From Kalymmatonema hyalinum WJT4-NPBG1 (GTDB taxonomy: Bacteria; Cyanobacteriota; Cyanobacteriia; Cyanobacteriales; Nostocaceae), in the NCBI GenBank assembly GCA_019359075.1, contig JAHHIB010000052.1:1-60813 (forward strand): 60,813 nt of DNA. The letters are read 5' to 3'. Position numbers and translations under genes: made by a program. Of the stretch, positions 4,401-58,801 are shown piece after piece. Under the pieces are notes generated by a model. That model made no database searches. It saw nothing but the letters and a program-made list of their open reading frames with translations, and was not told the origin of the DNA. The first letter of the stretch is position 1; each line of letters starts with the position of its first letter.

Positions 4401-4564
4401 TTGCCGATGGCTATGTGAGAGTTGTACAGGGCAGCAGTTCCAATAACTTTGGCGTGGAAATTGACTCCGATGGTTCCACAGGCGGAGACATCTTTAGACC
4501 GTTCATTGGTGTGAACGTAGCTGGTACAGGTAGCCTTAATAGCCCCAGTAACTTTGTATTCTAA
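1436..4564 (+). CDS. Secreted multidomain nuclease/phosphoesterase (ExeM/NucH-like) with Calx-beta and RTX-like tail
   Basis: A 1042-residue protein of the extracellular endonuclease/exonuclease/phosphatase class. In order: an N-terminal beta-rich region (about 1-215); a Calx-beta domain (about 216-330, with the typical DDTTVEGNETVTLTL ending); a beta-rich region with an OB-like part; the EEP fold from about 600, with TFNVENL, then NLEEIQDNN, the metal site GDLND near 822 and SDHDP near 895; and an RTX-like segment GTSDNDRIIGGAGADTL near 920-940. No classical signal peptide is visible; the RTX-like repeat suggests type I export. It likely degrades extracellular nucleic acid for phosphate or in biofilm. 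The next gene, 130 bases on, is also an exported protein. Confidence 0.85.
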   Translation: MSSAYYVLAIAPFTQDWSNTGLITTDDNWDNVPSIVGYRGDDLTTATGTDPQTVVADGTSTPVDVIANQTNPNITTGGVAEFQIANPVVALQGSGTADAPFVQIYLDTTSVNNINVSYLLRDIDGSADNSTQPVALQYRVGTTGNFTNVPAAFVADASTGPSQATLETAVNVQLPAAVANQSQVQLRIITTNAVGNDEWIGIDNISISGTPITSTVPTLTIQATDAAAAEAGSDPGTFRITRTGDTSASLGVNYTVATGAGQATNGTDYTPNLTGTAAIAAGQSFVDITITPVDDTTVEGNETVTLTLVDTTDYDLGGTSTATVTITDNDVAAGTRIRDIQGAAHISPLNGQAVNNVPGIVTATRSNGFYLQDPNPDTNDATSEGIFVFTSSAPTVAVGNSVTVSGTVSEFRPGGANSANLTTTQISSPSITTVSTGNPLPTATVLGNGGRTIPTTVIEDDANGSVETSGVFDPAQDGIDFYESVEGMLVQVNNAVAVGPTSDNGEIPVLADNGANASVRTARGGIVIQPGDFNPERIIIDDAIITSEPQVNVGDSFNGATVGVIDYSFGNFKLLNTQPLPSVTSGGLQREVTNLSPTANQLTVGTFNVENLDPSDGATKFNNLASRIVNNLKSPDIINLEEIQDNNGPTNDSVVDASQTFQTLINAIATAGGPTYEFRQINPVDDTNGGEPGGNIRVGFLFNPGRVQFVDRPGGTSTSGTTVSNVGGAPEPSFSPGLIDPTNSTFNNSRKPLVGEFTFNGRSVFVVGNHFNSKGGDQPLFGANQPPVLTSETQRNQQATVVRDFVQSILAIDPNANVVVAGDLNDFEFSNPVNNLESAGLTTLIETLPQNERYSYVFDGNSQTLDHILVSSNLLNNLDGFDSVHINSEFADQDSDHDPVLARFNLAPSVINGTSGRDTLVGTSDNDRIIGGAGADTLSGGPRSDQFAYTNIRDRGDTINDFQVSIDKLVFTELLDSLVPGGYSGTDAIADGYVRVVQGSSSNNFGVEIDSDGSTGGDIFRPFIGVNVAGTGSLNSPSNFVF

Positions 4565-4695
4565 AGCTGCTTTTAAGCTGCACTGGGAAGCACTACCCCA
4601 AAGAAAGACTCGAATACCAGACATCAACAATAAAAGCTGGCATCTACCAATTTATTCATCGATACAGTTGTTAGACGCAACTCATGGAGTTCTAA

Positions 4696-5388
4696 ATGTC
4701 AGCGAAAACTTTGCTCAAGTCTTTACTTAAATGTTCATCTCGAAAGGCTGTAGTATTAAGCTTGTTCAGCTTAGGTAGTTTGACGATTGCCTCCCCCTCT
4801 TTTGCTGCCAGTCTCGATGTTGGCAGTTGGACTAGATCGGGTGATGTTTCTCAGACTCCTGGTCAAGCCACACTGACCAATGCCTTCCCTGGTGGCGTTG
4901 ATGATACTGCCGCTAACCCCAACAATATTTCCAATGTCTCTGGCAATCAACCGACCTTTATTAGTAACCTAGAAACTTTTCTCGGTGTTAATCAAGGAGC
5001 TCTCGGTCTTGATGCTACCGAAGGCTCTGCCATCCAGACGCCTTTAAGCATCATGGCTGGAGATGTTTTCAGCTTTGACTCGAACTTCTTGACCAACGAC
5101 GATCCCGGCTTTGACCGCGCCTTTGTGACAATTGTGAACTCAACGATTGGCAACTCAGTCATTCCTGTGACGGGCAATTCTCGTTTCAGCTATACCTTCA
5201 CAACTGCTGGTAACTACAACGTTGGCATTGGCGTTGTTGATGGAGGGAATGATTTTACTCGCTCGTCACGATTGTCAGTAAGCAACGCGAACCTAGAGCC
5301 AGTTCCCGAACCCCTGACCATTCTGGGTTCACTTTCGGCTTTGGGGTTTGGCGCAGGTTTGCGGCGGCGGTTCCGCAAACAAGCGTAA
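4696..5388 (+). CDS. PEP-CTERM sorting-signal protein, function unknown
   Basis: A 230-residue exported protein. It has an N-terminal signal peptide (basic start, hydrophobic core, cleavage around SFAASLD), a Ser/Thr/Asn-rich beta-type body, and a C-terminal PEP-CTERM signal: VPEPLTILGS, a short hydrophobic helix and the basic end RRRFRKQA. Proteins with this tail are processed by exosortase and often end up in the extracellular matrix or sheath. The body has no recognised domain. A terminator follows 25 bases after the stop, so this gene ends its transcription unit. Confidence 0.85.
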   Translation: MSAKTLLKSLLKCSSRKAVVLSLFSLGSLTIASPSFAASLDVGSWTRSGDVSQTPGQATLTNAFPGGVDDTAANPNNISNVSGNQPTFISNLETFLGVNQGALGLDATEGSAIQTPLSIMAGDVFSFDSNFLTNDDPGFDRAFVTIVNSTIGNSVIPVTGNSRFSYTFTTAGNYNVGIGVVDGGNDFTRSSRLSVSNANLEPVPEPLTILGSLSALGFGAGLRRRFRKQA

Positions 5389-9028: not shown

Positions 9029-9342
9029 AAGCTTATAAAAGTACTATTAAAACCTATTAACATAAAGCATACAAAGTTTTTCATTAGTGTGGAAGTCAGT
9101 TCGTTACAGTTGCCAACGCTATGAGTATGGCGTGGACTAAACTTAGAACCAGTGGTTTTAAGGTATCAGAATTGTGCTTCGGTGAATTTGAGTAATCCGC
9201 TTATAACTACCACATCCGTAAAATTGACATGAGATTTTGGTAGCATATGATTTCAATACTGTTTCAACAACAGCAAATTTAGGAAACTCAAACTATACTT
9301 TAATCTGTCTTTCAAAAGAAGAAGATTTTTAGTAGCTCCTCT
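9029..9342. other. Divergent intergenic region
   Basis: About 310 AT-rich bases between the divergent antiporter and M23 peptidase genes, so promoters of both should be here. I see no open frame or strong palindrome. Confidence 0.5.
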
Positions 9343-10275
9343 ATGACGACCGAATATTACGCTAGTAGTTCTGGGAAAAAGTTACTGGGTTTAAGCGTGA
9401 CAGCTTTCAAAACCAACGTACGTGCAACCACTGTCGTACTTGGGATATTTGCCCTACCCTTTGCATTGGCAGCACCCGCAAAAGCGTTAGAAGTACAAGT
9501 CAATCCACCAACTCCCCAACTTGGCGATACCATATCAGTTGTAGTCAGTTTAGATAATCCAGCTAATGGTAGCAATGTCACAGTTACTAATGGTTCGGAG
9601 ACTTACCCAGTATATGAAATAGCACCACGACAGTACCGGGCTTTGATCCCGACAACGCCTTTGGAAAAAGCTGGAACCAGAACTCTTACGATTTCCGGCG
9701 AAGGTCAAGTGCAGAACTTGTCAGTACAAGTACGAAATCGCAAATTCCCCGTACAGCGCATTAATCTACCCCCAGGAAAAGCTGGGGTAAAAGCCACAGA
9801 GTATGAACTCAAGCGTGCAACAGAGTTTAAGGCGATAAAAACACCAGAAAAGTTTTGGGATGGTCCTTTTATCGCACCTAATAAAGGACGTGTCAGTACA
9901 ATTTATGGTGTACGTAGGTACTATAATGGAAAATTCGCAGATGATTACTATCATCGCGGTATTGACTATGCTGGTGGTGCCGGTTCGCCTGTTGTTGCTC
10001 CAGCGGCTGGACGGGTTGCTTTGGTAGGCAAGGTATCGCAAGGATTTCGGGTTCACGGTAATGTTGTTGGCATTGACCACGGGCAAGGAGTGGCAAGTAT
10101 TTTTATGCACCTCAGCCGCATTAATGTTAAAGAAGGTGATTTTGTTAAACCCGGTGAATTAATTGGCGCAGTCGGTTCAACAGGCGCATCCACGGGTCCG
10201 CATTTACACTGGGGGCTTTATGTCAATGGCAAATCTGTTGACCCCGTACCCTGGCGAAATGAAGGAGTAAAATAG
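9343..10275 (+). CDS. M23-family peptidoglycan metallopeptidase
   Basis: A 310-residue exported LytM-type endopeptidase predicted to cut peptidoglycan cross-links. The N-terminus has a late hydrophobic signal segment (around residues 28-47, ending APAKALE). Residues 48-130 look like an Ig-like beta domain, and the M23 domain lies at about 175-305, with the zinc ligands in place: His204 and Asp208 (HRGIDYAGG) and the HLH of His287-His289 (GPHLHWGLY). It probably acts in the periplasm in wall remodelling. A ComFB-type gene follows 99 bases on. Confidence 0.92.
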   Translation: MTTEYYASSSGKKLLGLSVTAFKTNVRATTVVLGIFALPFALAAPAKALEVQVNPPTPQLGDTISVVVSLDNPANGSNVTVTNGSETYPVYEIAPRQYRALIPTTPLEKAGTRTLTISGEGQVQNLSVQVRNRKFPVQRINLPPGKAGVKATEYELKRATEFKAIKTPEKFWDGPFIAPNKGRVSTIYGVRRYYNGKFADDYYHRGIDYAGGAGSPVVAPAAGRVALVGKVSQGFRVHGNVVGIDHGQGVASIFMHLSRINVKEGDFVKPGELIGAVGSTGASTGPHLHWGLYVNGKSVDPVPWRNEGVK

Positions 10276-10374
10276 TAACTTTTTGCGTATTATGCGTATT
10301 ATTGCCTTATGAGTGGGCAAAATAAATAGGATTGATTGGTACCGTACCCACCTTGCTTGGATAGCTGAAAGATA

Positions 10375-10926
10375 ATGAGCGTTATGAGTATTGACAAAAT
10401 TGTGGAACAGGCTCTCCAGGATGGTTATCTTACACCAGCAATGGAAGCAGAAGTCGGGCGAATCTGTGATAGCGCTAGTGAACTCTCAATAGAGGAGTAC
10501 AAAGCGTTGGATCGGCTGATGGTGTCGCTATTGAGTGGGGATGTGGTGGCGGTACCACGCAAACAATTTATCAACGTTATGGAAGAGTTGGTACTGACAG
10601 AGGCAATATCTCGTGTAGCGGAAATTGAAGCGACTAGCGAAAGTTCTCTGGATGTTGGGGATATTGCCGCTTACGCCCTCAACCGGCTACCACCTCTATA
10701 TGCTACTACAGAAGAAGGTGCCAACTACCAGCGCCAACGCGCAAGAGCAGAACTTCAGGAATTGATTGCCCAGCAAGTTGGCGAGGCGATCGCCCGCAAC
10801 CTAGACCGACCAAATGATGATAGAACGCCTGTCGGAACTAAAAACACTGGCAATGAGGTTTTGCGCCAAGTCAGTACCTTACTCCAAGTATACGCACCCC
10901 ATTTTGAGCAAAAATCAGAGTATTGA
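10375..10926 (+). CDS. ComFB-domain protein (cyanobacterial c-di-GMP receptor family)
   Basis: A 183-residue soluble protein. Residues about 60-145 match the late-competence ComFB domain as found in cyanobacteria: FINVMEELVLTEAI, then DVGDIAAYALNRLPPLYATT and RARAELQELIAQQV. Members were recently described as c-di-GMP receptors affecting cell size and competence. The N-terminal 55 residues are helical and acidic. Two ATGs (10375 and 10384) are possible starts. Its TGA forms the edge of a perfect 19-base inverted repeat shared with the convergent L,D-transpeptidase. Confidence 0.8.
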   Translation: MSVMSIDKIVEQALQDGYLTPAMEAEVGRICDSASELSIEEYKALDRLMVSLLSGDVVAVPRKQFINVMEELVLTEAISRVAEIEATSESSLDVGDIAAYALNRLPPLYATTEEGANYQRQRARAELQELIAQQVGEAIARNLDRPNDDRTPVGTKNTGNEVLRQVSTLLQVYAPHFEQKSEY

Positions 10927-10972
10927 TCACTCATGAGTCATTAACCTACGACAAATGACTCATGAGTGATCA
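10924..10972. terminator. Perfect 19-bp inverted repeat holding the stop codons of two convergent genes
   Basis: Arms 10924-10942 and 10954-10972 are perfectly complementary with an 11-base loop; the arm core ACTCATGAGT is itself a palindrome. The left edge is the TGA of the ComFB gene and the right edge is the TGA of the L,D-transpeptidase gene on the other strand. It most likely acts as a two-way terminator, though no T-run follows. Confidence 0.7.
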
Positions 10973-11641
10973 TTGACGTACTTCCACTGGTGTCCCCAAA
11001 CTCACCTGCTTGTAAAGCAGGCGGACATCAGGATTACGCATCCGCAAGCAACCGTGGGATATTGCACTCCCTATGACTTCATCATCTGGTGTGCCATGAA
11101 AGCCAATTTGATTGCGTCCATCTGACCAAAAACCAATCCATCGGTCTCCTAAAGGACTATCAGGACCCGACGCAAATATTTTGCCAGTAATCGGGTGACG
11201 CCAGGTAGGATTGAGTTGCCTATACATAACTTGGAAAGAACCAGTGGGCGTTTCCCAACCTTTCTTACCCACAGCAATTGGGTAACTTGCTATAACGAGA
11301 TCCCCACGTTGAACGTAAACACGGCGATCGCTCAAATCAACTATCAATTGATTGTTTTCAGATGCCAGGCTTTGAGAGAATTTCTGTTGAGCAGAACCTT
11401 GACCTGAGAGCAAACTTGATATATGATACGCAATTGCATTCTGTCTTTTTTCCTGCGTCAGTTGCCCCGGTTTTTCTGCTGCCCAAGCTTGCCCAGATAA
11501 AACCTTTCCACCTGCTGTTCCTAACTGGGTATGAGGGGTCATAGTCGTCATGCGCCAATGGACAGCCAGAGATAGGATTGCTGTACCAAAACAGAGCAAC
11601 ATCACTACACGCGTTAATGAGTCGTTTCTTACTATCGCCAT
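10970..11641 (-). CDS. L,D-transpeptidase (YkuD family)
   Basis: A 223-residue membrane-anchored or exported protein. An N-terminal hydrophobic helix (about residues 12-27) serves as anchor or signal. The YkuD domain starts near residue 92 (LIVDLSDRRVYV) and contains the catalytic motif with Cys198 (SHGCLRM) and an upstream conserved His (GFHGTPDDE). Such enzymes make 3-3 cross-links in peptidoglycan or attach proteins to it. With the M23 peptidase nearby it forms a loose cell-wall neighbourhood, but it is transcribed from the opposite strand. Confidence 0.92.
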   Translation of the reverse strand: MAIVRNDSLTRVVMLLCFGTAILSLAVHWRMTTMTPHTQLGTAGGKVLSGQAWAAEKPGQLTQEKRQNAIAYHISSLLSGQGSAQQKFSQSLASENNQLIVDLSDRRVYVQRGDLVIASYPIAVGKKGWETPTGSFQVMYRQLNPTWRHPITGKIFASGPDSPLGDRWIGFWSDGRNQIGFHGTPDDEVIGSAISHGCLRMRNPDVRLLYKQVSLGTPVEVRQ

Positions 11642-27378: not shown

Positions 27379-27798
27379 ATGTATAATCATTCTTTGCCGC
27401 TCAACGGTCTGCGAGTGCTCGTTGTTGATAGTGACCTTGATTCTAGAGTTTTGTTGACAATGGTGTTTGAAGAGTATGGTGTGGAGACGATCGCCGCAAC
27501 ATCGGCTTTTGAGGCTCTAGAAATCGTCAAACAAGTTAAACCAGACCTCCTGATCAGCGAAATTAGCTTGCCCAATGAAGATGGTTACTCGCTAATGCGG
27601 AAGGTGAAAGCCGTTGAGAAGGCGCGACAAGTCGAGATCCCAGGGATCGCTCTGACGACATACGACGGGGAGGACGATCGCGCCCACGCTCTATCGGTCG
27701 GCTTCTGCAAGCATTTACCTAAACCTTTTGACATCGACGAGTTAATCACAACAGTTGCTTGCCTAACTAGACAAGTTCAATGGGAGCTTACAACATGA
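27379..27798 (+). CDS. Receiver-domain protein with Glu at the phospho-acceptor site
   Basis: A 139-residue single receiver domain from ATG 27379 (MYNHSLP); an earlier start at 27319 looks spurious. It has the N-terminal acidic residues (VVDSD) and conserved LPKPF lysine (Lys115), but at the position of the phosphorylated Asp it has Glu61 (PDLLISEISLP). Glu there cannot be phosphorylated normally and may mimic the active state. The stop overlaps the next start (ATGA), so it is translationally coupled to the PAS-Crp regulator. Confidence 0.85.
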   Translation: MYNHSLPLNGLRVLVVDSDLDSRVLLTMVFEEYGVETIAATSAFEALEIVKQVKPDLLISEISLPNEDGYSLMRKVKAVEKARQVEIPGIALTTYDGEDDRAHALSVGFCKHLPKPFDIDELITTVACLTRQVQWELTT

Positions 27799-28955
27799 AT
27801 GCCACTGCCTTTACTCAACAGGTCAAAGCGATGTCTGATCGCTTAGTGAACCTGTATCAAGGAATCGACATATCCTCTTCACTACCGCCATCGGCTCTTT
27901 CTGAACTCGGCATTGCCTCTGAGCGACTTGAGGTAGCAGCAAAGATGCTGTACCAGCAGAATCAGAAGTTATCATTGGCTGACCAAACTGTGGAAGCTGA
28001 GCGCCAGCGCTACCAGGAGTTGTTGGAGTTTATCCCCGATGGTTGTCTGTTGACAGATGCAGCAGGAAGGATTCAGGAAGCGAATCAGGCGGCTGCCAAG
28101 TTGCTTAACCGCCAGCAATCCTTCTTAATTGGTCGGTCTATAAATGCTTTCGTCACTCATGAAACTCGGCAACAGTTTCAGACTAAGTTGCAGCGGCTGC
28201 AGCAAAGACCAGGGAAACAGGAGTGGCAGGTCCGCTTGCAACCGCATCAAGGTGTAGCGTTTGATGTCAGTGTCTTCGTAGAGGCCATCTGCCAAGAAGC
28301 AAACCAACCGCTGACCGTGCGCTGGCTGTTGCGCCACGCGAGCCATTGCAACCAGGTCGAAGCACAAGAACAGCCTGACAGCAATACCGATTTGGGCTAC
28401 CCTTTGCAGGTTTATCACAAGGGGGAAACAATTCCTTTAAACCCTCAGACGATTTGGCAGGTTCGTTCAGGACTGGTGAAGCTAACAACGTTTTCTCATA
28501 GCGGTCAAGAGGTGTTGGTTGGGTTAGCAGGTGCAAAAGCCCCCTTTGGTGCTAGCTTGACTGCCCTGCCGCTCTATCAGGCAACTGCCCTCGCCGATAC
28601 TCAGGTATGGTGCATTCCACTCACCGATTTCGCGACTTCTGCTGAACTCAAGCAGCAACTTTTACCTCAAATTAGCCAACGACTCAGACAAACCGAATTG
28701 CTACTCGCAGTTTACGGACAAGCACGAGTCGCAGACCGCTTCGATAGTTTATTACGGTTGTTAAAACAGGAAATTGGACAGCCTGTAGCAGATGGCACTC
28801 GCCTTTTGGTTCGTCTCACCCATGAAGACCTTGCTACTGCCTGCTGCACAACCAGAGTCACCATCACCCGGTTGCTTAAAAAACTACAGCAGCAAAAGAA
28901 GTTGAGCGTAGATTTCCAGCGTCACCTGATTCTGAAGGGATGGGACAGCGAATAA
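27795..28955 (+). CDS. PAS-domain Crp/Fnr-type transcriptional regulator
   Basis: A 386-residue protein from ATG 27795, overlapping the preceding stop by four bases. Order: an N-terminal helical part, a PAS domain at about 75-180 (YQELLEFIPDGCLLTDAAGR), a cNMP-binding-like beta barrel at about 200-290 (WQVRSGLVKLTTFSHSGQEV) and a Crp-type helix-turn-helix near 345-386 (LTHEDLATACCTTRVTITR). A sensory PAS joined to a Crp output is uncommon. Likely regulated by, or forming a complex with, the receiver protein encoded upstream. Confidence 0.82.
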   Translation: MNATAFTQQVKAMSDRLVNLYQGIDISSSLPPSALSELGIASERLEVAAKMLYQQNQKLSLADQTVEAERQRYQELLEFIPDGCLLTDAAGRIQEANQAAAKLLNRQQSFLIGRSINAFVTHETRQQFQTKLQRLQQRPGKQEWQVRLQPHQGVAFDVSVFVEAICQEANQPLTVRWLLRHASHCNQVEAQEQPDSNTDLGYPLQVYHKGETIPLNPQTIWQVRSGLVKLTTFSHSGQEVLVGLAGAKAPFGASLTALPLYQATALADTQVWCIPLTDFATSAELKQQLLPQISQRLRQTELLLAVYGQARVADRFDSLLRLLKQEIGQPVADGTRLLVRLTHEDLATACCTTRVTITRLLKKLQQQKKLSVDFQRHLILKGWDSE

Positions 28956-46851: not shown

Positions 46852-47310
46852 TTAGCTAGCTACAACTTGAATGTTGACTGTTGCTGTCACGTCAGAATAC
46901 AGCTTAATTTCAGCCTCATAAGTACCTAACTGACCAATATCGGGTATGGTAATACCACGCCGATCTATTTCCAGTCCTGTGGTTTGTTGAATGACATCTG
47001 CCACGTCTTGGCCGGTGACAGTACCGAAAATAGCTTCGCCTTCACCAGCCTGCTTAGCAATTTTGAAGCTTTCAACTTTTTCCAAAACTGCTTTTTGCTC
47101 TTGAGCCTGTTGCTTCAATTCTAATTGCCGCTGGCGTTCTAACTCGCGGCGACGTTCGACTTGCTTGAGAATACCAGCAGTGGCACGAGTTGCCAAACTT
47201 TTGGGAATGAGATAATTACGAGCATAGCCAGGGGCAACTTCTACTAAGTCGCCAGATTTGCCTAGCTTGATGATATCTTGAGTTAAAACTAACTGTACAC
47301 GTTTCGCCAT
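46852..47310 (-). CDS. rplI: Ribosomal protein bL9
   Basis: A 152-residue large-subunit protein. The N-terminal rRNA-binding domain has the signature [20 protein letters not shown], then a long central helix ([20 protein letters not shown]) joins it to the C-terminal domain. Normal length. Here it is isolated from other ribosomal genes, as is usual in cyanobacteria. Confidence 0.97.
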
Positions 47311-47646: not shown

Positions 47647-47650
47647 CTAA
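47628..47650. repeat. AATGACT heptamer array supplying the gloB stop codon
   Basis: Three perfect units. CTA at 47647-47649 (TAG on the minus strand) ends the glyoxalase II gene, as in the antiporter gene at 6689. Confidence 0.9.
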
Positions 47651-48420
47651 AATTTATCTTTCATTCCTCGTATCCACGCAAAGGTTTGCACGGAGTCGCG
47701 ATTGTTAGCAGCTGATTGTAATGCTGGTTGCTCCCAGCGTAAAAAGGGATTTGTGCGTTTTTCCACCCCCAAAAGCGAGGGAACAGTCGCTTCTTTCCGA
47801 CTCCGGGACGCCTTCACCTCATCGTAACGGGTTTGTAAGTCGGCGTTTTGTGCATCTACGGTGAGGGCGAATTTTAGATTGTTCAGAGTGTATTCGTGGG
47901 CACACCAGACGCGGGTATCATCAGGTAATGAGCGGAGTTTGCTTAAGGAGTCTACCATTTGCGTTGGTGTCCCTTCAAACAAGCGACCACAACCACCAGC
48001 AAACAGAGTATCGCCGCAGAATAACTCACCCGTCTCACCTGGGTTCTCAGGAGGAAAATAATAGGCAATATGAGCGCGGGTATGTCCGGGAACGAAGATC
48101 ACATCAGCTGTTCTGTCTGCAAATTGGACGCGATCGCCTTCTTGTAAAAACACCTGCTGTCCTGGTATTCTCCCTTTATCCTCAGCCCCACCATAAACTG
48201 TCACATCAGGGAATTGTTGCATCAGTTCGCGGTTCCCTCCTACATGGTCATTATGATGGTGCGTGTTAAAAATCGCCACCAACGACGCCTTTAATTCCTT
48301 TAGTTTCTCCAAAACTGGTTTTGCTTCGGCTGGATCGACAACAGCAGCAATATTTTGCTTTGGATCGTGCACCACAAAGATGTAGCTATCTGAAAGTGCT
48401 GCTAACCGGATGACCTGCAT
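47647..48420 (-). CDS. gloB: Hydroxyacylglutathione hydrolase (glyoxalase II)
   Basis: A 257-residue metallo-beta-lactamase-fold enzyme that hydrolyses S-lactoylglutathione in methylglyoxal detoxification. The metal motif is [11 protein letters not shown] (His54, His56, Asp58, His59), with [13 protein letters not shown] and [16 protein letters not shown] further on. Length is typical of glyoxalase II. No glyoxalase I gene is in the window. Confidence 0.95.
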
Positions 48421-48966: not shown

Positions 48967-49890
48967 ATGTTAGTCATATCTGCAAAATCTGGACAATTAG
49001 GCAATAGGCTGCTACTTTTTGCTAACTTTATAGCTTTCGCTAGAGAAAATAAATTCACAGTGTTGAATCCAGCATTTGAAGAATATGCTGATTTTTTTCA
49101 GTCAACAGCTAAAGATTTTCTCTGTTGCTATCCTGCTCCTCAATTGTCAATTTCAGGAAATAAAAAATTACGCCAATACTACTATAATTTCAACCGTTCC
49201 CTAGTTGAAAGCGGACGCTTCAATACCATTGATATTAAGCGAGAGCAACCATTTAATTGGAGTCGTTCCAATATAGTTGAACAGTTAAAACCGAAGTCGC
49301 TCAACTTCTTCAAAGGTTGGCTGTTTCGGGATGGATGGTTTGTCGATGAAACAGCAAATCTCCGGAAACACAGTGATGCTATTCGTGCATACTTCCAACC
49401 TCTAAAAAAATATCAAGAAAATATTGCAAAACTGATATCCAATATTAGGAATGGAACCGATATCCTTATAGGAGTTCATATTCGTCAAGGAGATTATCGA
49501 CAGCATCAAGATGGCAGGTATTTTTATCAAGCTGAACAGTATTTAAAGGTTATGGAGTCAGTGCAAGCGCTATTCTCTGATAAACAAGTCACTTTTTTGA
49601 TTTGCTCTAATGAGAAGCAAGAGGCGGATTTTTTCCAACATTTATCTTATGTATATGGAAATAATCATATTATTGAGGATATGTATGCCTTAGCAGAATG
49701 CGACTATATTATCGGTCCTCCCAGTAGTTATACTATGTGGGCGTCTTTTTATGGAGAGCGACCACTTTATATGATTAGGGATGTGAATAAAGCTTTAGAA
49801 CTGAAAGATTTTGTTCATTATTATCAATGGCAAGGTCTGTTTCACTATAACGATGACTGGAGCAAAAGTTTTTGGGAATGGACGCATTAA
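48967..49890 (+). CDS. GT11-like (alpha-1,2-fucosyltransferase-type) glycosyltransferase
   Basis: A 307-residue enzyme of the O-fucosyltransferase-related fold. The nucleotide-sugar motif is GVHIRQGDYR (His171, Arg173, Gly175, Asp176), and the N-terminus SGQLGNRLLLFANFIAFA matches GT11 openings. Later DYIIGPPSSYTMWASFYG is also typical. It would transfer fucose (or another GDP sugar) to a growing glycan. It is the first gene of a same-strand cluster; a palindromic repeat separates it from the next gene. Confidence 0.82.
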   Translation: MLVISAKSGQLGNRLLLFANFIAFARENKFTVLNPAFEEYADFFQSTAKDFLCCYPAPQLSISGNKKLRQYYYNFNRSLVESGRFNTIDIKREQPFNWSRSNIVEQLKPKSLNFFKGWLFRDGWFVDETANLRKHSDAIRAYFQPLKKYQENIAKLISNIRNGTDILIGVHIRQGDYRQHQDGRYFYQAEQYLKVMESVQALFSDKQVTFLICSNEKQEADFFQHLSYVYGNNHIIEDMYALAECDYIIGPPSSYTMWASFYGERPLYMIRDVNKALELKDFVHYYQWQGLFHYNDDWSKSFWEWTH

Positions 49891-50846: not shown

Positions 50847-50891
50847 AAATAAGTATTGCCATGCAATATTTTTTTTGATTACGTAAATATA

Positions 50892-52049
50892 ATGAGAACA
50901 AAAGTTTCACTAGTCGTGAGCGATCTGTCCGGAGGCGGAAGTGTCCGGGCGTTTTTACTAGCTCAAGTCTTCAAAAGTCTTAATTATCAAGTAGAAATTG
51001 TTGGTTTTCTTTACGGAAAAGAATTGTATGCAATTCCTCCTTCTGGAATTGAGATTATTTCCATTCCTGGCACAAATTATCCTAAGTTTTTTGGCTCCAT
51101 TCCGAAGCTTTTACAAAAATTAGATGGAGATATTATTTATGCAGTAAAACCCAAGCCTACAAGTTTTGGTGTATCTCTACTTAAGAAGTTCAGCAGTCGT
51201 CGTCCTTTACTGTTAGATATGGATGACTGGGAACTGAGTTGGTATGGCGGTTTTGAATGGAAGTATCATCCTAGTCTCAAGCAATTTTATCGGGACATTT
51301 TCAAGAAAAATGGTGCATTGAGATTTCCGGATCATCCTTTGTATCTACAGTGGATGGAAGCAAGAGTGCAAAATGCAGATGCAGTAACCATAGATACTGC
51401 GTTTCTTAAAGAACGTTTTGGCGGTGCTTATTTGCCTAATGGCAAAGATACTGCAATGTTTGATCCGGATAAGTATAACCCAGAAGCAAGCAGAGAACGT
51501 TATGGTCTTTCTGATTATCGAGTTGTCATGTTTCCTGGCGCACCACGACCTCACAAGGGGGTTGAAGATGTTTTAATAGCATTGGATCAGTTGAATCAGC
51601 CAGATATAAGACTCGTCATTGTCGGTGGCAGCCCTTACGATGATTATGATGATAAACTCATTCAAAAATGGGGACGTTGGATTATAAAATTACCAAAGTT
51701 TCCTGTAGAGGTTATGCCTGAGATTGTCGCAGCTGCTCATATCGTGGTTGTTCCTCAGCGAGATACTCTGACTGCTCGCGCCCAGTTTCCGCTAAAGTTG
51801 ACAGATGGGATGGCAATGGCTAAACCTGTATTGTCAACACGAGTTGGAGATATTCCAGAAATTTTAGACGAAACTGGTTATTTGGTTGACCCCAGTTGTC
51901 CGGAACAAATTGCACAGCAAATTCAGTGTATATTTCAGGATTTAGAGTCAGCTAACGAGCGAGGCTCAAAGGCGAGAGCAAGATGCATAGAAAAATATAG
52001 CATAGAGACTATGGCATCTACCCTAAAGTCGGTGATTGCTAAGTTGTAA
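50892..52049 (+). CDS. GT4-family glycosyltransferase
   Basis: A 385-residue GT-B enzyme from ATG 50892 (MRTKVSLVVSDLSGGG). An upstream start at 50856 would add 12 residues without support. It has the glycine-rich loop SGGGSVRAFLLAQ, FPGAPRPHKGVEDVLIALDQ in the linker, and a C-terminal donor site region (FPLKLTDGMAMAKPVLSTRV) with the family's E-x7-E-like variant. Likely a sugar transfer step in the same glycan. A gap of 242 bases with a palindrome separates it from the exporter gene. Confidence 0.85.
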   Translation: MRTKVSLVVSDLSGGGSVRAFLLAQVFKSLNYQVEIVGFLYGKELYAIPPSGIEIISIPGTNYPKFFGSIPKLLQKLDGDIIYAVKPKPTSFGVSLLKKFSSRRPLLLDMDDWELSWYGGFEWKYHPSLKQFYRDIFKKNGALRFPDHPLYLQWMEARVQNADAVTIDTAFLKERFGGAYLPNGKDTAMFDPDKYNPEASRERYGLSDYRVVMFPGAPRPHKGVEDVLIALDQLNQPDIRLVIVGGSPYDDYDDKLIQKWGRWIIKLPKFPVEVMPEIVAAAHIVVVPQRDTLTARAQFPLKLTDGMAMAKPVLSTRVGDIPEILDETGYLVDPSCPEQIAQQIQCIFQDLESANERGSKARARCIEKYSIETMASTLKSVIAKL

Positions 52050-52291: not shown

Positions 52292-54535
52292 ATGTCAACC
52301 AGTAAGCTACTACTAAGATTTGCTAAACCTTATCCAGTTGTCATTTTCCTAACCATTCTATTAGGATTTTCTGGAGCTTTATTTAATGGTGTGAGTACGG
52401 CTCTGATTGTGCCAGTCATTCTCAGGATTGTGGGACAAGAAGTAGATTTAAGCGGTGCTCCTGCCATTATCAAAAAAATCATTTATCCATTTGATAATAT
52501 TTCAGAAGATTACCGCTTATTGGTCATGGCGGGGGCAATTATATTCACAATTTTCTTGAAAAATTTAGCGAGTTACGCGAGTACGTTGGCTTCTAGTAAT
52601 TTAACACGTCGGCTGACTTCTGATATGCGCGAAGCAGGCTTACAGTTATTGCTAGAAATCGATATAGATTATTACACCAAGATGAAAGTTGGTGATTTAA
52701 TTAACAGCCTTGGTGGAGAAATTGGTCGTGCCGCCACTGCTATAGGTAGTATAGTTAAGTTAATTATTCTTGGAATAACAATTATAGTTTTCGTTGGCTT
52801 ACTGCTGTCAATTTCTTGGGAATTGACAATTGCTTCTACAATTTTGCTCTCTCTTGTAACGTTAGTCAACCAATATGCTATTTCCCGTTCTAAGAAGTTT
52901 GGCAAGCAGCTGAGCGATATGTCTAAAGCATATTCAATCTCTGTGCTGGAAACCCTCAACGGAATTCGTTTGGTGAAGGCAACGGGTAATGAACAAAGAG
53001 AACTTTATCGCATTAAGAAACTCATTCGCGATCGCGAAAAAGCAGATTTTCAGTCTCAGATCAATTCTGAGGCAATAGCACCTGTGAGTGAAGTCATGGG
53101 TATTACAGCCATACTCCTGATTGTCTTTTTAAGCCGCACGTTCTTTGCACAGCAAATTACGTCGCTTTCCGCTGTCATGCTTACATATTTATTAATACTA
53201 TTGCGAGTACTACCTTTGATTTCTCAGCTCAATACCATTCGTAGTAGCTTTGCCAGTACCGCTAGCAGCGTGGAAGTTGTTGCTGACTTTTTACGTCTGG
53301 ATAATAAGCCGTTGATGGGTAACGGTAAAATACCGTACACAAAATTACAAAAGGGAATACATTTCAAGTGGCTTTCCTTTGCCTACCCTGGTCATGATAA
53401 GTTAGTGATAAAAGATGTAAATTTATACATAGCACGCGGTACAACACTGGCTTTGGTAGGAAGTTCTGGTGCAGGGAAATCTACACTGGTAGACCTTTTA
53501 CCCAGATTTTATGACCCCACATCTGGCTGTATTACTATCGACGGCGTGGATTTACGCGATTTCGAGTTGAAATCGTTGCGAAAGGCAATGGGAATTGTCA
53601 GTCAAGATACCTTCCTGTTCAATGATACAGTGCGGAAAAACATTGGCTATGGACGACCGGAGGCGACAGACGAAGAAATCATGATTGCAGCCAAGCGGGC
53701 AAATGCTTATGAGTTTATTATCAAATTGCCTCAGGGATTTGATACCTTGATTGGCGATCGCGGTGTCATGTTGTCTGGAGGACAAAGACAACGCCTTGCT
53801 ATAGCCCGTGCTTTGCTACAAGACCCAGAAATTCTGATTCTAGACGAAGCAACCAGCGCTTTAGATACCGTTTCCGAACGCTTAGTGCAAAGTGCGCTGG
53901 ATGATTTGAGTCGCGATCGCACAACCTTAGTGATTGCTCACCGCCTTTCCACAGTCCAAAAAGCTGACCAAATCGCCGTACTGGATCAAGGACGCGTGGT
54001 AGAGGTGGGAAACCATAAAGAACTTTTACAAAAGGGTGGTTTCTACTCGCGCCTGTACGCAATGCAATTTGCCGACAAGTCAGAAACAGCTAGCAAACGT
54101 AAGCAAAGCTTAATCCGCGTTTCTCACGAAATTCGCACGCGCCTTAACTCAATGCTTGGCTTTTTACGCTTATTAATTGATGATATGGCAGACAATTCCC
54201 AAGAGCGACAGGAATTAATTGAAGAATCCTACAAATCTGCCTTGAGAATTCTCAATACTCTAGATGTTTTTGATGATATTGTTAACCTACAGAAAAACTG
54301 GCAATTTTCAGCAACAGAAGAAAATAACGGCGTCGCTCCGGGACATGAAACTTTGAAGGTTGTGACTGAGGATCTGAGAACAAACCTTAATCCTATGCTT
54401 GGCTCTCTCCGCTCCCTTGCCGATAATTTAGTAGACACCCCCCAAAAACAAAATCAAATCCTTTCAGAAGCTTATCACTATGCGATGCATCTACTTGATA
54501 AATTAGAGCATTTTGAGGATAGTGTTAAAGTCTAA
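52292..54535 (+). CDS. ABC exporter (MsbA/HepA type) with two C-terminal HisKA-like repeats
   Basis: A 747-residue half-transporter. About 1-320 is a six-helix exporter domain. The ATPase follows: Walker A GSSGAGKST (about 390), signature LSGGQRQRLAIAR (about 494), Walker B ILILDEATSALD (about 514). The transporter normally ends near 595. Here about 140 residues follow: SHEIRTRLNSMLGFLRLLID (His612), then a second, weaker copy TEDLRTNLNPMLGSLRSLAD with Glu693 in place of His. Both match the H-box and four-helix dimerisation domain of cyanobacterial histidine kinases; no kinase ATPase domain follows. Likely exports glycan or lipid-linked sugar for the cluster. Confidence 0.88.
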   Translation: MSTSKLLLRFAKPYPVVIFLTILLGFSGALFNGVSTALIVPVILRIVGQEVDLSGAPAIIKKIIYPFDNISEDYRLLVMAGAIIFTIFLKNLASYASTLASSNLTRRLTSDMREAGLQLLLEIDIDYYTKMKVGDLINSLGGEIGRAATAIGSIVKLIILGITIIVFVGLLLSISWELTIASTILLSLVTLVNQYAISRSKKFGKQLSDMSKAYSISVLETLNGIRLVKATGNEQRELYRIKKLIRDREKADFQSQINSEAIAPVSEVMGITAILLIVFLSRTFFAQQITSLSAVMLTYLLILLRVLPLISQLNTIRSSFASTASSVEVVADFLRLDNKPLMGNGKIPYTKLQKGIHFKWLSFAYPGHDKLVIKDVNLYIARGTTLALVGSSGAGKSTLVDLLPRFYDPTSGCITIDGVDLRDFELKSLRKAMGIVSQDTFLFNDTVRKNIGYGRPEATDEEIMIAAKRANAYEFIIKLPQGFDTLIGDRGVMLSGGQRQRLAIARALLQDPEILILDEATSALDTVSERLVQSALDDLSRDRTTLVIAHRLSTVQKADQIAVLDQGRVVEVGNHKELLQKGGFYSRLYAMQFADKSETASKRKQSLIRVSHEIRTRLNSMLGFLRLLIDDMADNSQERQELIEESYKSALRILNTLDVFDDIVNLQKNWQFSATEENNGVAPGHETLKVVTEDLRTNLNPMLGSLRSLADNLVDTPQKQNQILSEAYHYAMHLLDKLEHFEDSVKV

Positions 54536-54539
54536 AATT

Positions 54540-55751
54540 ATGAAAAATATTGCTTTTAAAAAATACTATATTTTTTTTATTAGAGAAGAGTTGCCAAAAC
54601 CAGAAGCTCACTTAGTTCAGTCTACGAATTCGGCAAACGCTGCTGCAAACTTGGGTTACTTAACGATTTTGGTCTATCCCTACAAAGGATTAGCAGCATT
54701 CAACCCAATTGATTTAGTTCTGCCTTTTCGACCAAGAAAAACACCAAAAAATTTGGTGAAATATTACAACCTCCAGGACAAACTAAAAGTTACTCCCCTA
54801 CCGATGCCTTGGCCCATCGATTATTTGCCAAGCAAATTCACAGACTCTAACACCATCGCCTCAAAGTATTATTTCCCGTTTCACATATTGCCCCAAACCA
54901 AAATTGTCCACAGTCGAGACTGGAACTTTGTGAAAGCTGCTGTTCAAAATGGAGTTCCAGCAATTTACGAACACCACCACCACGAAGAAAAGTTATTTGA
55001 ACCAGAAATAGTTAATAGCCCGCTGTTTCAAATTTCGATCACAGTTGCAGATACAATCCGGGAAACCATGATTCAAAATGGTATGCCACCGCAAAAAGTC
55101 ATAAAGCTGCACAATGGTTTTAATCGCCTGTTTATGATGAGACAGCCTCAAAAAGCAGCCGAATGGCGTCAAAAACTTTTGGTAGATGGACGCTCGCATC
55201 TAATCGTGTATTCGGGAGCACTACAGCAATTTAAAGGCATCGAAATCCTCATTGATGTAGCTCGTGAAATGCCAAATATTCAATTTGCCTGTGCAGGTGG
55301 CAAGGAAAACGAGGTAGCGCACTATCAGCAATTAGCAAAAGAAAAGCAGGTGAACAACATTATATTCTTGGGGTACATCTTACAAGAAGATTTGGCATCT
55401 TTGCTCCAAGCTGCTGATGTTTTAGCTCACCCTCACTGTTCGGGAAAAGCAGCGACATTCACCTCTCCTCTAAAATTGTTTGACTACTTTGCCTCTGGAA
55501 CTCCGATTGTGGCGACGGAAATTCCCTCGTTAATGGAGTTTAGAAATACGAAGGCGATCGCTGCTTGGTGTGAACCAGATAATCCCAGCAAATTTGCCGA
55601 AGCAGTGGCGCAGGTTTTAGAAACTTATCCTAGGAAAATTGAAGGTTATCAAGATAGTGTCAATTTTGTGAAACAATTTTCTTGGGAAAATCGAGCGGCA
55701 AAAATTTTGAGTTACGTTGATGAATCTTTTCGTCCTCCTATTGTTGCATAA
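54540..55751 (+). CDS. GT4-family glycosyltransferase
   Basis: A 403-residue GT-B enzyme from ATG 54540, only four bases after the exporter stop, so the two are surely co-transcribed. The C-terminal half has the acceptor-binding LIVYSGALQQFKGIEILI, FLGYILQEDLASLLQAADVL and SPLKLFDYFASGTPIVATE (family Glu motif). The N-terminal half is unusual, with an HHHHEE run in the middle. Sugar unknown. Confidence 0.87.
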   Translation: MKNIAFKKYYIFFIREELPKPEAHLVQSTNSANAAANLGYLTILVYPYKGLAAFNPIDLVLPFRPRKTPKNLVKYYNLQDKLKVTPLPMPWPIDYLPSKFTDSNTIASKYYFPFHILPQTKIVHSRDWNFVKAAVQNGVPAIYEHHHHEEKLFEPEIVNSPLFQISITVADTIRETMIQNGMPPQKVIKLHNGFNRLFMMRQPQKAAEWRQKLLVDGRSHLIVYSGALQQFKGIEILIDVAREMPNIQFACAGGKENEVAHYQQLAKEKQVNNIIFLGYILQEDLASLLQAADVLAHPHCSGKAATFTSPLKLFDYFASGTPIVATEIPSLMEFRNTKAIAAWCEPDNPSKFAEAVAQVLETYPRKIEGYQDSVNFVKQFSWENRAAKILSYVDESFRPPIVA

Positions 55752-55787: not shown

Positions 55788-56747
55788 ATGGCTATAAAAA
55801 CTGTTGGCATGATTAGCAGCTATCAAAATCTTGATAAAAGATGCGATTGGCTGTGGCAACAAACACCTCATCAATTTGGTGTTTGGGGCAATATACAAAT
55901 GCAGGCGCTTGTACCCAAGCCAGATTTTCTGCTGATGTATCAATTTGATTTTCCCCAACCTACACAGCAGAAATCTTGGTTAAATTCGTTTCGCAAACAA
56001 CAGCAAAAATCTCAATTAAACATCGATTCTCTACTACGCGGCGTCAGCAAAGAAGGGGGGATTTATCTGCTGCGAGAACCACCATTAGATGAGGTTCTTG
56101 AAAGAAACAAACAGAATTATCAGCAAGCGCAGAAATATTGTGGCTACGTTTCCGGACCTGATGATTTTGCTCCCACTCCTGATTATATGCCTGCAATTTG
56201 GTATCACAGCAACTCATTTCGCGAATTAAATGAAATGCCACCTCCCGAAAAGGTTGCATCTTGCAGTTGGATTACCTCTGGAATTAGCCGCACAGCTAAC
56301 CATCGCCAACGCTTACAGTTTTTGCAATCCTTACAAGCTAGTGAAGTGAAGTTTGATTTGTACGGGCGCGGCTTACCTACATGGGCGACAACACCACGAG
56401 AGTTGGGCAACAAATGGTACGGCATGGCACCCTATTATTACAATCTGGCGATTGAAAACTATGCCGACAATAATTGGTATGTCAGTGAAAAACTTTGGGA
56501 TGCAATTCTTGCATGGTGTCTGCCAATTTACTATGGTGGACCAGCTGCTGATAAACTATTGCCTCCAGGAAGTTTTCTGCGGTTACCCAGCTTGGATGAA
56601 AAAGGCATTGCCTACATACAAGAGGTGACTGCTACCCCTGATGCTTGGTATGCAGCAAAGGAAGCGATAAGCGAAGCCAGACAAATTATCCTCCACAAAC
56701 TCAATCTGCTCAATTGGCTTTCAGAATTTGTTACCAAATTCTCCTAA
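55788..56747 (+). CDS. GT10-like (alpha-1,3-fucosyltransferase-type) glycosyltransferase
   Basis: A 319-residue protein with the GT10 C-terminal signature: NYADNNWYVSEKLWDAILA followed by WCLPIYYGGPAADKLLPPGS. The FDLYGRG strand before it also fits. This family adds fucose in alpha-1,3/4 linkage in animals and bacteria. With the GT11-like gene at the start of the cluster, it points to a fucosylated glycan, though no GDP-fucose synthesis gene is in the window. Confidence 0.85.
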   Translation: MAIKTVGMISSYQNLDKRCDWLWQQTPHQFGVWGNIQMQALVPKPDFLLMYQFDFPQPTQQKSWLNSFRKQQQKSQLNIDSLLRGVSKEGGIYLLREPPLDEVLERNKQNYQQAQKYCGYVSGPDDFAPTPDYMPAIWYHSNSFRELNEMPPPEKVASCSWITSGISRTANHRQRLQFLQSLQASEVKFDLYGRGLPTWATTPRELGNKWYGMAPYYYNLAIENYADNNWYVSEKLWDAILAWCLPIYYGGPAADKLLPPGSFLRLPSLDEKGIAYIQEVTATPDAWYAAKEAISEARQIILHKLNLLNWLSEFVTKFS

Positions 56748-56785
56748 TGAGTTTTCATATCATGTTCGTATTTGCATTACTGGAA

Positions 56786-56806
56786 GAGGACTAAAGTCCT
56801 CACTAC
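56786..56806. repeat. AGGACTAAAGTCCT palindrome before the next gene
   Basis: GAGGACTAAAGTCCTC followed by ACTAC. It is a single copy of the repeat doubled at 46695-46747 and lies 60 bases before the chosen start of the next gene. Confidence 0.8.
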
Positions 56807-56862
56807 GAATTTCCGCAGGTGATTTGGTAAATTTCTCCTTTTGTCCTCTCCTCCAGAAAGAT

Positions 56863-57858
56863 ATGGATGGTATTTGTACCCTCGCTAATGACCGAGTTTA
56901 CGACCAACTCGTTGCCCTACTCAATAGCATCGAGGCAATTTATGGGCAAAAAATGCCCGTTTGCGTCTATCCCTACGACGACAACACAGCCCAAATTGCT
57001 GCGGAAATTGCTCGCCGCCCTAATGTACAACTTTACAATCATCAAGATTCAATTCAGCAATGGGATGAGTTTGTCCGCAATATTTGGAATACTCATCCTA
57101 CCGCGCAAGAGCATTGGCGGCAAATTGGTAGTGACAAATATTATCGAGTCGGCACCCATAGGCGTTACTGTGCCTTTGATGCTCCTTTTGACCGCTTTGT
57201 ATACATGGATGCTGATACTTTATTAATGAGTTCCTTAGAGCAAGTTTTTGCTCAACTCAATCAATATGACTGGGTGGTGTATGACTTCCAGTTCAAAGAT
57301 TTATCTCATGTCTATAATACCTCATCGACTAAATTAAAAGAATTATTTACACCAGAAAGACTGCAAACAGAAATATTTTGTTCGGGCTTTTATGCCTCCA
57401 AAAAAGATATATTTGATACTCACAAGCGTTCATGGCTGCTGGAACAACTGCGGCAAGGAGAAGCAGAAATTCTTTATGATATGGCTCCTGACCAAACAAT
57501 TCTTAACTACATGGTCATGCGGTCAGGCATCTCTAGCTATAATTTTGCTCACTCTCTTCCTGAAAGTGAAAAAACTGGCTGTTGCGTTACTTCTTCTCAT
57601 TTTCAAGGAAAAGACAATATCTTGTATGACAAAGGTAATCGGTTAACTTATATTCACTATATCGGTTTGTCGTCTAAGTTATTTAGCCGGGTTTGTGCTG
57701 GGGAAAATATTGATTTTCCTTACCGGGAAATTTTCTTGCACTATCGCTATCTGCACGAACCAGACAAGCGACCAAAGTTCAAGAGTAAGCCGAAAGCTTA
57801 CAATGCACCTCCAAGTTTAGCTACGCGAATTTTAAGAAAGATAGGATTAGCAGGTTGA
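56863..57858 (+). CDS. Glycosyltransferase-like protein (Npun_R2821/R2822-type family)
   Basis: A 331-residue protein from ATG 56863 (MDGICTLANDRVYD). A longer frame from 56728 would include a dispersed palindrome and is rejected. It has a GT8-like fold with the metal motif YMDADTLL, the opening LANDRVYDQLVALLNSIEA and VCVYPYDDNTAQIA. I recall this family from Nostoc punctiforme, where two members are adjacent, as here. Substrate unknown. The next gene starts ten bases after its stop. Confidence 0.8.
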   Translation: MDGICTLANDRVYDQLVALLNSIEAIYGQKMPVCVYPYDDNTAQIAAEIARRPNVQLYNHQDSIQQWDEFVRNIWNTHPTAQEHWRQIGSDKYYRVGTHRRYCAFDAPFDRFVYMDADTLLMSSLEQVFAQLNQYDWVVYDFQFKDLSHVYNTSSTKLKELFTPERLQTEIFCSGFYASKKDIFDTHKRSWLLEQLRQGEAEILYDMAPDQTILNYMVMRSGISSYNFAHSLPESEKTGCCVTSSHFQGKDNILYDKGNRLTYIHYIGLSSKLFSRVCAGENIDFPYREIFLHYRYLHEPDKRPKFKSKPKAYNAPPSLATRILRKIGLAG

Positions 57859-57868
57859 GGATTATTCA

Positions 57869-58801
57869 ATGACTAGGGGAATTTATATTATTGCTAACGA
57901 TAAGGTGACTGACCATGCGATCGCACTACTCAATAGTATCCGGTTGCATGATAAAGAAACACCAATTGTCATGATTCCTTACGATGACAATTATCACGGC
58001 ATTGCAGATACACTTAACCAGCATTATGGAGTAACAATATACGAAGATTTAGATTTCATCGATAGATTATCAAAAAAATTACATGATGTTTTTGGAAGTA
58101 AGTTTTTTGCCCGTCCCAATCAATTTCGTAAGCAAGCTTGTTGGTTTGGACCATTTGATGAGTTTTTGTACATAGATACAGATATAGTTGTCTTTGAAAA
58201 AATAATTGACAATCTTAACTATCTGGCTGAATATGATTTTATTTGTTGTGATTATCAACATGCAGGAGGCATTAATAATGTCTTCACACAGCAAGTTTTA
58301 GAAGAAAAAGTATTTACTGAAACTGAAGTTAAAGATATTTTCAACGGTGGTTTTTGGGCTTCAAAGAAAAACATCATCTCAGAACAGGATTTGTATGAAA
58401 CCTTTGCCGAGTGTGCCGCCCATCCAGAATACTTTGATTTTTCCCAAAAAACTTCCGACCAACCGATTATTAATTATATGCTCCTCAAGCGGATTGGGCA
58501 GCGCTTCAACATTGTCCGCAGAGAGGGTAAAGCACCAGGAAATTGGGGAGGAAGTCCTCATTTTCAGACTCAGGGAAATATACTGATTGACCCTTCAGTT
58601 AATCAACCCCTGCAATACCTTCACTGGGCTGGTATTCGGATTGAACCTGGTTGTCCCTACTGGGAGATTTGGGAATATTACCGCAATCTTAATCCTGCAC
58701 TCCCACCTGCAGTTTTCCCACCAAAACCAAAGAAAAGTCAGTGGCAGCAAACATTCGATAATCTGAAGAATCAATTAAGGCAAATCAAAGCTAAGTTATA
58801 G
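57869..58801 (+). CDS. Glycosyltransferase-like protein, paralogue of the preceding one
   Basis: A 310-residue member of the same family: IYIIANDKVTDHAIALLNSI, MIPYDDNYHGIADTL and YIDTDIVVF (metal motif). It lies ten bases after its paralogue, so both are in one operon. The C-terminus ends in a Lys/Gln-rich helix. Probably adds one sugar of the glycan made by this cluster. Confidence 0.8.
   Translation: MTRGIYIIANDKVTDHAIALLNSIRLHDKETPIVMIPYDDNYHGIADTLNQHYGVTIYEDLDFIDRLSKKLHDVFGSKFFARPNQFRKQACWFGPFDEFLYIDTDIVVFEKIIDNLNYLAEYDFICCDYQHAGGINNVFTQQVLEEKVFTETEVKDIFNGGFWASKKNIISEQDLYETFAECAAHPEYFDFSQKTSDQPIINYMLLKRIGQRFNIVRREGKAPGNWGGSPHFQTQGNILIDPSVNQPLQYLHWAGIRIEPGCPYWEIWEYYRNLNPALPPAVFPPKPKKSQWQQTFDNLKNQLRQIKAKL

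Follow-up and report, generated by a model that had tools for sequence, protein, structure and literature searches.

Why should an ABC exporter end in a domain that belongs to histidine kinases, and what could such a domain do there? The question is raised by a gene of Kalymmatonema hyalinum WJT4-NPBG1 (GenBank assembly GCA_019359075.1, contig JAHHIB010000052.1), lying in a stretch of 60,813 nucleotides that was analysed as a whole and is referred to here as the window. An open frame of 747 amino acids runs from an ATG at 52292 to 54535 on the forward strand. An earlier note, made from the sequence, had read it as a normal exporter, its ATPase ending near residue 595, followed by two repeats of a kinase dimerisation-like domain (DHp, HisKA), and had known of no described exporter with such a tail. 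Within the open-licence literature, judged on titles and abstract openings, no description of an exporter-HisKA tail fusion was found. Both domains are already known; the novelty lies in their being joined, in how widely the fusion is spread, and in an acceptor residue that is not conserved.

The exporter portion has the domain order of a half-transporter. ABC_membrane (PF00664, residues 58-304, 52463..53203, Pfam E 1.7e-21) precedes the ABC_tran nucleotide-binding domain (PF00005, residues 374-522, 53411..53857, E 9.6e-35), both on the forward strand. In an alignment of full exporters the ABC motif columns, which we take to be the P-loop, signature and Walker B, are invariant or almost so. 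The NCBIfam model for HepA (NF045513) scores 576.1 bits over residues 4-593, below its curated cut-off of 725, and that for MsbA (TIGR02203) scores 453.7 bits over residues 43-595, below its cut-off of 602. Solved MsbA and Sav1866 structures align with the same portion, the best solved exporters ending at 592-594. Exporter homology thus stops at about residue 592-595, as first read, and the HepA and MsbA models stop short of the 152 residues that remain, in which two hairpins of about 60 residues each are found. The three top-scoring exporter paralogs in the window's genome have just 4-5 residues at the point where the tail starts.

Scanned alone, residues 596-747 match Pfam HisKA (PF00512) at 43.1 bits (E 4.4e-11), above the gathering score of 26.9, and the whole protein matches in two stretches at 37.7 bits (E 2.1e-9), so that the HisKA likeness holds under an HMM check. 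Hairpin 1 (residues 605-664, 54104..54283, forward strand; Pfam HisKA 610-658) scores 119.7 bits with a repeat-1 profile, which was built from 20 hairpin-1 sequences and searched against the window's genome. The degenerate hairpin 2 (about residues 687-745, 54350..54526, forward strand) scores 61.3 bits with the same profile (E 6e-16), and because the repeat-1 profile finds it at this level, the duplication goes beyond chance. Elsewhere in the genome the tail has its closest relative in the DHp domain of a kinase on contig C10 (G000:C10, 62.6 bits), which has a C-terminal ATPase region; the next matches reach 42.1 and 39.3 bits, and the rest 31 or less. From these scores it is most likely that the tail was derived from the DHp domain of a kinase and later duplicated.

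The tail resembles the DHp/HisKA domains of kinases in scoring above the gathering score, in its predicted helical hairpins, and in mostly keeping the E-x-R-T and N of the motif. It differs from them in that its acceptor His is not conserved, no HATPase is present, and it sits behind an exporter. The Pfam scan, which covered the exporter protein and the glycosyltransferase gene following it, found no HATPase, so the HATPase_c domain that follows HisKA in a histidine kinase is missing, as the first reading had it. A kinase ATPase lying farther downstream was considered and rejected, being absent from that next gene. As a separate observation, the tail's second-nearest relative other than the exporter itself (G000:C52:34883-35041) is a 317-aa kinase-like protein with the H-box THVLRSPLN and an ATPase part that looks degenerate by eye.

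A frameshift or assembly error joining two genes could have produced such a protein. This is excluded by the recurrence of the tail in 51 of the 59 genomes of the same genus or family, G024 among them in a broken frame, and in all 80 named loci from Nostocales. The same frame appears in orthologs of 98% and 96% identity and in many genera. The nearest named relative, Scytonema sp. NIES-4073 (taxonomy name Kalymmatonema gypsitolerans), carries the 98% identical protein. The 80 named loci, from Nostoc, Scytonema, Tolypothrix, Fischerella, Chlorogloeopsis and others, were kept from 142 relatives and are cyanobacterial by title. One of them is cut by a contig end, and at least 21 are the same genomes as members of a separate 60-locus set. 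Their 80/80 represents no frequency, because the search itself started from the tail sequence.

Frequencies come instead from the genome sets. Eight of the 59 family genomes show no visible tail; for five of these eight the exporter status is covered, G021 having a tailless ortholog and G014, G028, G032 and G035 having no exporter match at E 1e-140. Across the phylum, 75 of 386 genomes (the window's own included) match the exporter at E 1e-140 or better, and 70 of the 75, again including its own, carry the tail. In these 70 the frames are at least 669 aa long, and the match reaches query residue 646 or beyond in 67; in G007, G236 and G432 it ends at 597, and the tail was seen on separate inspection. 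The other five (G021, G252, G352, G072, G084) have tailless orthologs, as their sequences were read, and the tail is accordingly not essential to the transporter. In the roughly 700 bases behind these five orthologs no convincing tail remnant was found, one match reaching E 0.17 on the other strand.

Two hairpins are the usual state in the window's family. Outside it, 24 tails from 21 genomes comprise 18 single-hairpin and 6 two-hairpin forms (all of the latter in G125, G136 and G204), the number being classed by tail length and set to one by hand for L100. Because 18 of these 24 tails have a single hairpin, duplication is not the defining feature of the fusion. A quick exporter-core tree (84 rows, rooted with three paralogs, 25 of 81 inner branches weak) requires five changes for tail presence and eight for hairpin number, counts that leave gain and loss undistinguished.

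Frames of 877-893 aa in G125, G136 and G204 were considered as an exporter joined to a whole kinase, and this was rejected: G125 C10, G136 C63 and G204 C9 represent a paralog with a long stretch ahead of the hairpins, and in the G204 C7 ORF the normal two-hairpin form is preceded by about 120 additional residues. A paralogous exporter of 864-873 aa, with a long insert separating the DHp-like hairpins from the ATPase domain, was also seen at L236, L237 and L238, loci that have no GT4 gene. At L090 (G024), a 389-aa tailed exporter frame (3822-4991) starts near the ATPase domain, and the ORF upstream is another exporter piece, representing either a broken gene or an assembly error.

The genes around the exporter suggest a probable substrate. 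Of its eight neighbours scanned with Pfam, six match glycosyltransferases and two have no match. The most constant is a GT4-type glycosyltransferase (50856..52049, forward strand), which immediately precedes the exporter, in the same orientation, in 79 of the 80 named loci, the remaining one being cut by a contig end. It lies directly upstream in 58 of the 60 loci of the second set as well, another ORF coming first in L080 and an exporter piece in L090. In the 29 loci that were laid out, it adjoins the exporter in 25, being absent from L236, L237, L238 and L243, and it adjoins all five tailless orthologs. Downstream on the forward strand follow a second group-1 glycosyltransferase by Pfam, whose ORF overlaps the exporter end by 23 bases (54513..55751; 70/80), a GT10 (fucosyltransferase-type) gene by Pfam (55788..56747; 78/80), a conserved gene with no Pfam match (56728..57858; 77/80), and a putative mannosyltransferase-type gene (57869..58801; 77/80) with a weak Pfam match (E 8e-5), the fractions counting homologs anywhere in the named loci, not proven orthologs. 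On the opposite strand upstream lie 47647-48420 and 46852-47310, which we take to be gloB and ribosomal protein L9; their homologs occur in 70 and 62 of the 80 named loci. The search for the same fusion beside glycosyltransferases in other Nostocales was therefore answered positively, and the exporter's glycosyltransferase setting stands. Judged from these neighbours, the substrate is probably a sugar polymer or glycolipid. A GT11-type gene at the cluster start (48967-49890) has a homolog in 10 of the 80 named loci only, the rest of the cluster being stable.

AlphaFold2, given 61 sequences, predicts four helices for the tail (6-39, 46-85, 93-120 and 127-156 of a 157-residue query; mean pLDDT 85.1, pTM 0.78), which suggests one compact four-helix unit; the full-length model is poor (pLDDT 59.2, pTM 0.42). 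The alignments behind these models comprised 61 of 80 extracted tails and 59 of 80 full proteins, the window's being in both; L153, cut by the contig end, was omitted from the full-length alignment, and L142 from the tail list, since the script required MQF. Foldseek against the PDB matched a designed single-chain four-helix bundle over the whole tail length (TM 0.72, E 0.028) and otherwise returned generic helical bundles, and helical bundles match easily. Among the best 50 of 679 matches none reached E 0.001, and the sole kinase-named entry was the FAT domain of focal adhesion kinase. DHp bundles in the PDB are usually made of two chains, and a search at the level of single chains would therefore be unable to match both hairpins. 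Covariation between hairpins 1 and 2, drawn from 111 sequences (effective number about 58), gave top pairs with no clear pattern.

Because the acceptor residue, counted below, is often replaced, the tail probably now has a structural or docking role. With moderate confidence we take it to be the dimerisation domain of a kinase, converted into a non-catalytic tether or docking module. The half-size ABC exporter, which should act as a homodimer, would move a glycan or glycolipid across the membrane together with the GT4 and other glycosyltransferases. Its tail, presumably descended from the DHp (HisKA) hairpin of a histidine kinase, would have dropped out of phosphotransfer and would form a helical-bundle module beside the nucleotide-binding domains. 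In single-hairpin orthologs, one hairpin per subunit could build a DHp-like four-helix bundle tethering the two ATPase domains, and in the two-hairpin form of the family the predicted four-helix unit within each subunit may serve as a docking or spacing module; any effect of the bundle on transport is a guess. We lean towards two alternatives that the earlier note had itself offered, that the tail may dimerise the half-transporters or be bound by a kinase. Of its interpretation, the HisKA homology, the duplication, the missing kinase ATPase, the glycosyltransferase setting and the lack of a description in the literature searched stand; phosphorylation of His612 as a conserved function is not supported.

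The strongest competitor, possible although unlikely, is that a histidine kinase or response regulator docks on the tail, by way of a mixed DHp bundle or receiver binding; two-component signalling would then tune export, or the exporter would titrate the kinase. A precedent for such hetero-interaction between DHp domains is known from RetS and GacS, where one DHp can substitute for the homodimer partner of another (PMC12148439). The likeness to this mixed bundle lies in the use of a DHp domain for binding and in a weak match of RetS and GacS chains to the tail profile; the difference is that RetS and GacS are both sensor kinases and the carrier of the tail here is a transporter. When the tail profile was compared with solved structures, histidine kinase chains, GacS and RetS included, matched at E 0.00035 to 0.028. 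However, unrelated coiled-coil chains (viral fusion proteins, a nucleoporin) reached similar E-values, and this mixture makes the kinase match weak when taken alone. Docking would fit a tail whose closest kin is a kinase of the same genome and whose motif is kept around the acceptor without the acceptor itself. Yet no two-component domain was found by Pfam among the eight scanned neighbours, nor any HisKA, HATPase or receiver match in ten further ORFs of the window at the thresholds used, and a 609-aa frame with a DHp match occurs in G021 too, although the exporter there is tailless. Rather doubtful is the wider proposal that in cyanobacteria the dimerisation half of a histidine kinase has become a standing accessory domain, coupling a glycan exporter to a two-component kinase or receiver through mixed-bundle docking while the exporter stays unphosphorylated.

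That the tail acts as a phospho-acceptor, a kinase phosphorylating His612 in trans and thereby switching the exporter, is a reading we consider quite improbable. The residues themselves were read correctly: codon 612 (54125..54127, forward strand) encodes His in the window, although Tyr in many orthologs, and codon 693 (54368..54370, forward strand), its counterpart in hairpin 2, encodes Glu. In the family, represented by 53 sequences (the window and 51 genomes, one contributing two copies), position 612 is His in 33, Tyr in 16, and Gly, Gln, Val and Asp in one each. His thus predominates in the window's family, where the H-E-x-R-T context is largely retained (E613 in 50, R615 in 51, L618 in 50, N619 in 51, L625 in 52), and a family-specific use of His may exist. 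Nevertheless, among the 24 tails from other families 23 have Tyr, one has Phe and none has His, so the phospho-acceptor His of HisKA domains is not conserved here. The exporter-core tree requires at least eight His/Tyr changes by parsimony and 13 over all residue states, and the codons involved (CAC/CAT for His, TAC/TAT for Tyr) are one transition apart. Pro is usual in the H-box motif of kinases, but only one of the 53 family sequences has it. An H-box count on the 80 named loci was set aside, one of the two search patterns having demanded His. The earlier contrast between His612 and Glu693 is likewise a local state, since position 693 is spread over D (16), E (12), N (7), V (5) and K (4), with Y, I and S in two sequences each and A, Q and H in one each. 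Phosphorylation is therefore not supported as a common function of the tail on these sequence counts. A further observation concerns L069 (G019), where two tailed exporters lie about 4 kb apart (2825-5065 and 9222-11513), the first with Asp at the acceptor position of hairpin 1 and His in hairpin 2.

Purifying selection acts on the tail. Across 29 close pairs within the family, median dN/dS is 0.131 in hairpin 1 and 0.197 in hairpin 2, against 0.098 in the exporter core; the pairs have branches in common and so are not independent, and the ratios are rough because several of the pairs have a dS of about 1 or higher. The broken frame L090 was omitted from both the tree and dN/dS, and the second G019 copy (L069_b) from dN/dS. 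In a 20-row alignment from inside and outside the family, hairpin 1 has 7 invariant columns and 10 more at 90% or above. That the tail is an almost neutral relic of an ancient gene fusion would suit the five tailless orthologs among 75 genomes and the faster evolution of repeat 2 than of the exporter core, but is very unlikely with both repeats far below a dN/dS of 1 and hairpin 1 so constrained.

Read as a repurposed tether or docking module, the tail represents a widespread case of a signalling domain that has parted from its kinase and been joined to a transporter, in a glycosyltransferase-exporter locus shared by cyanobacteria of different families. Such tails could reveal how non-catalytic modules arise from DHp domains, and the orthologs with zero, one or two hairpins, and with His, Tyr or another residue at the acceptor position, provide a natural series for probing the domain's role. 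An automatic HisKA label on such exporters implies neither a kinase nor phosphorylation. Elsewhere in the window, a single chain encoded at 27780-28955 combines PAS, cyclic-nucleotide-binding and Crp-type DNA-binding matches, and a 1042-aa protein at 1436-4564 combines Calx-beta, endonuclease/exonuclease/phosphatase and RTX calcium-binding matches.
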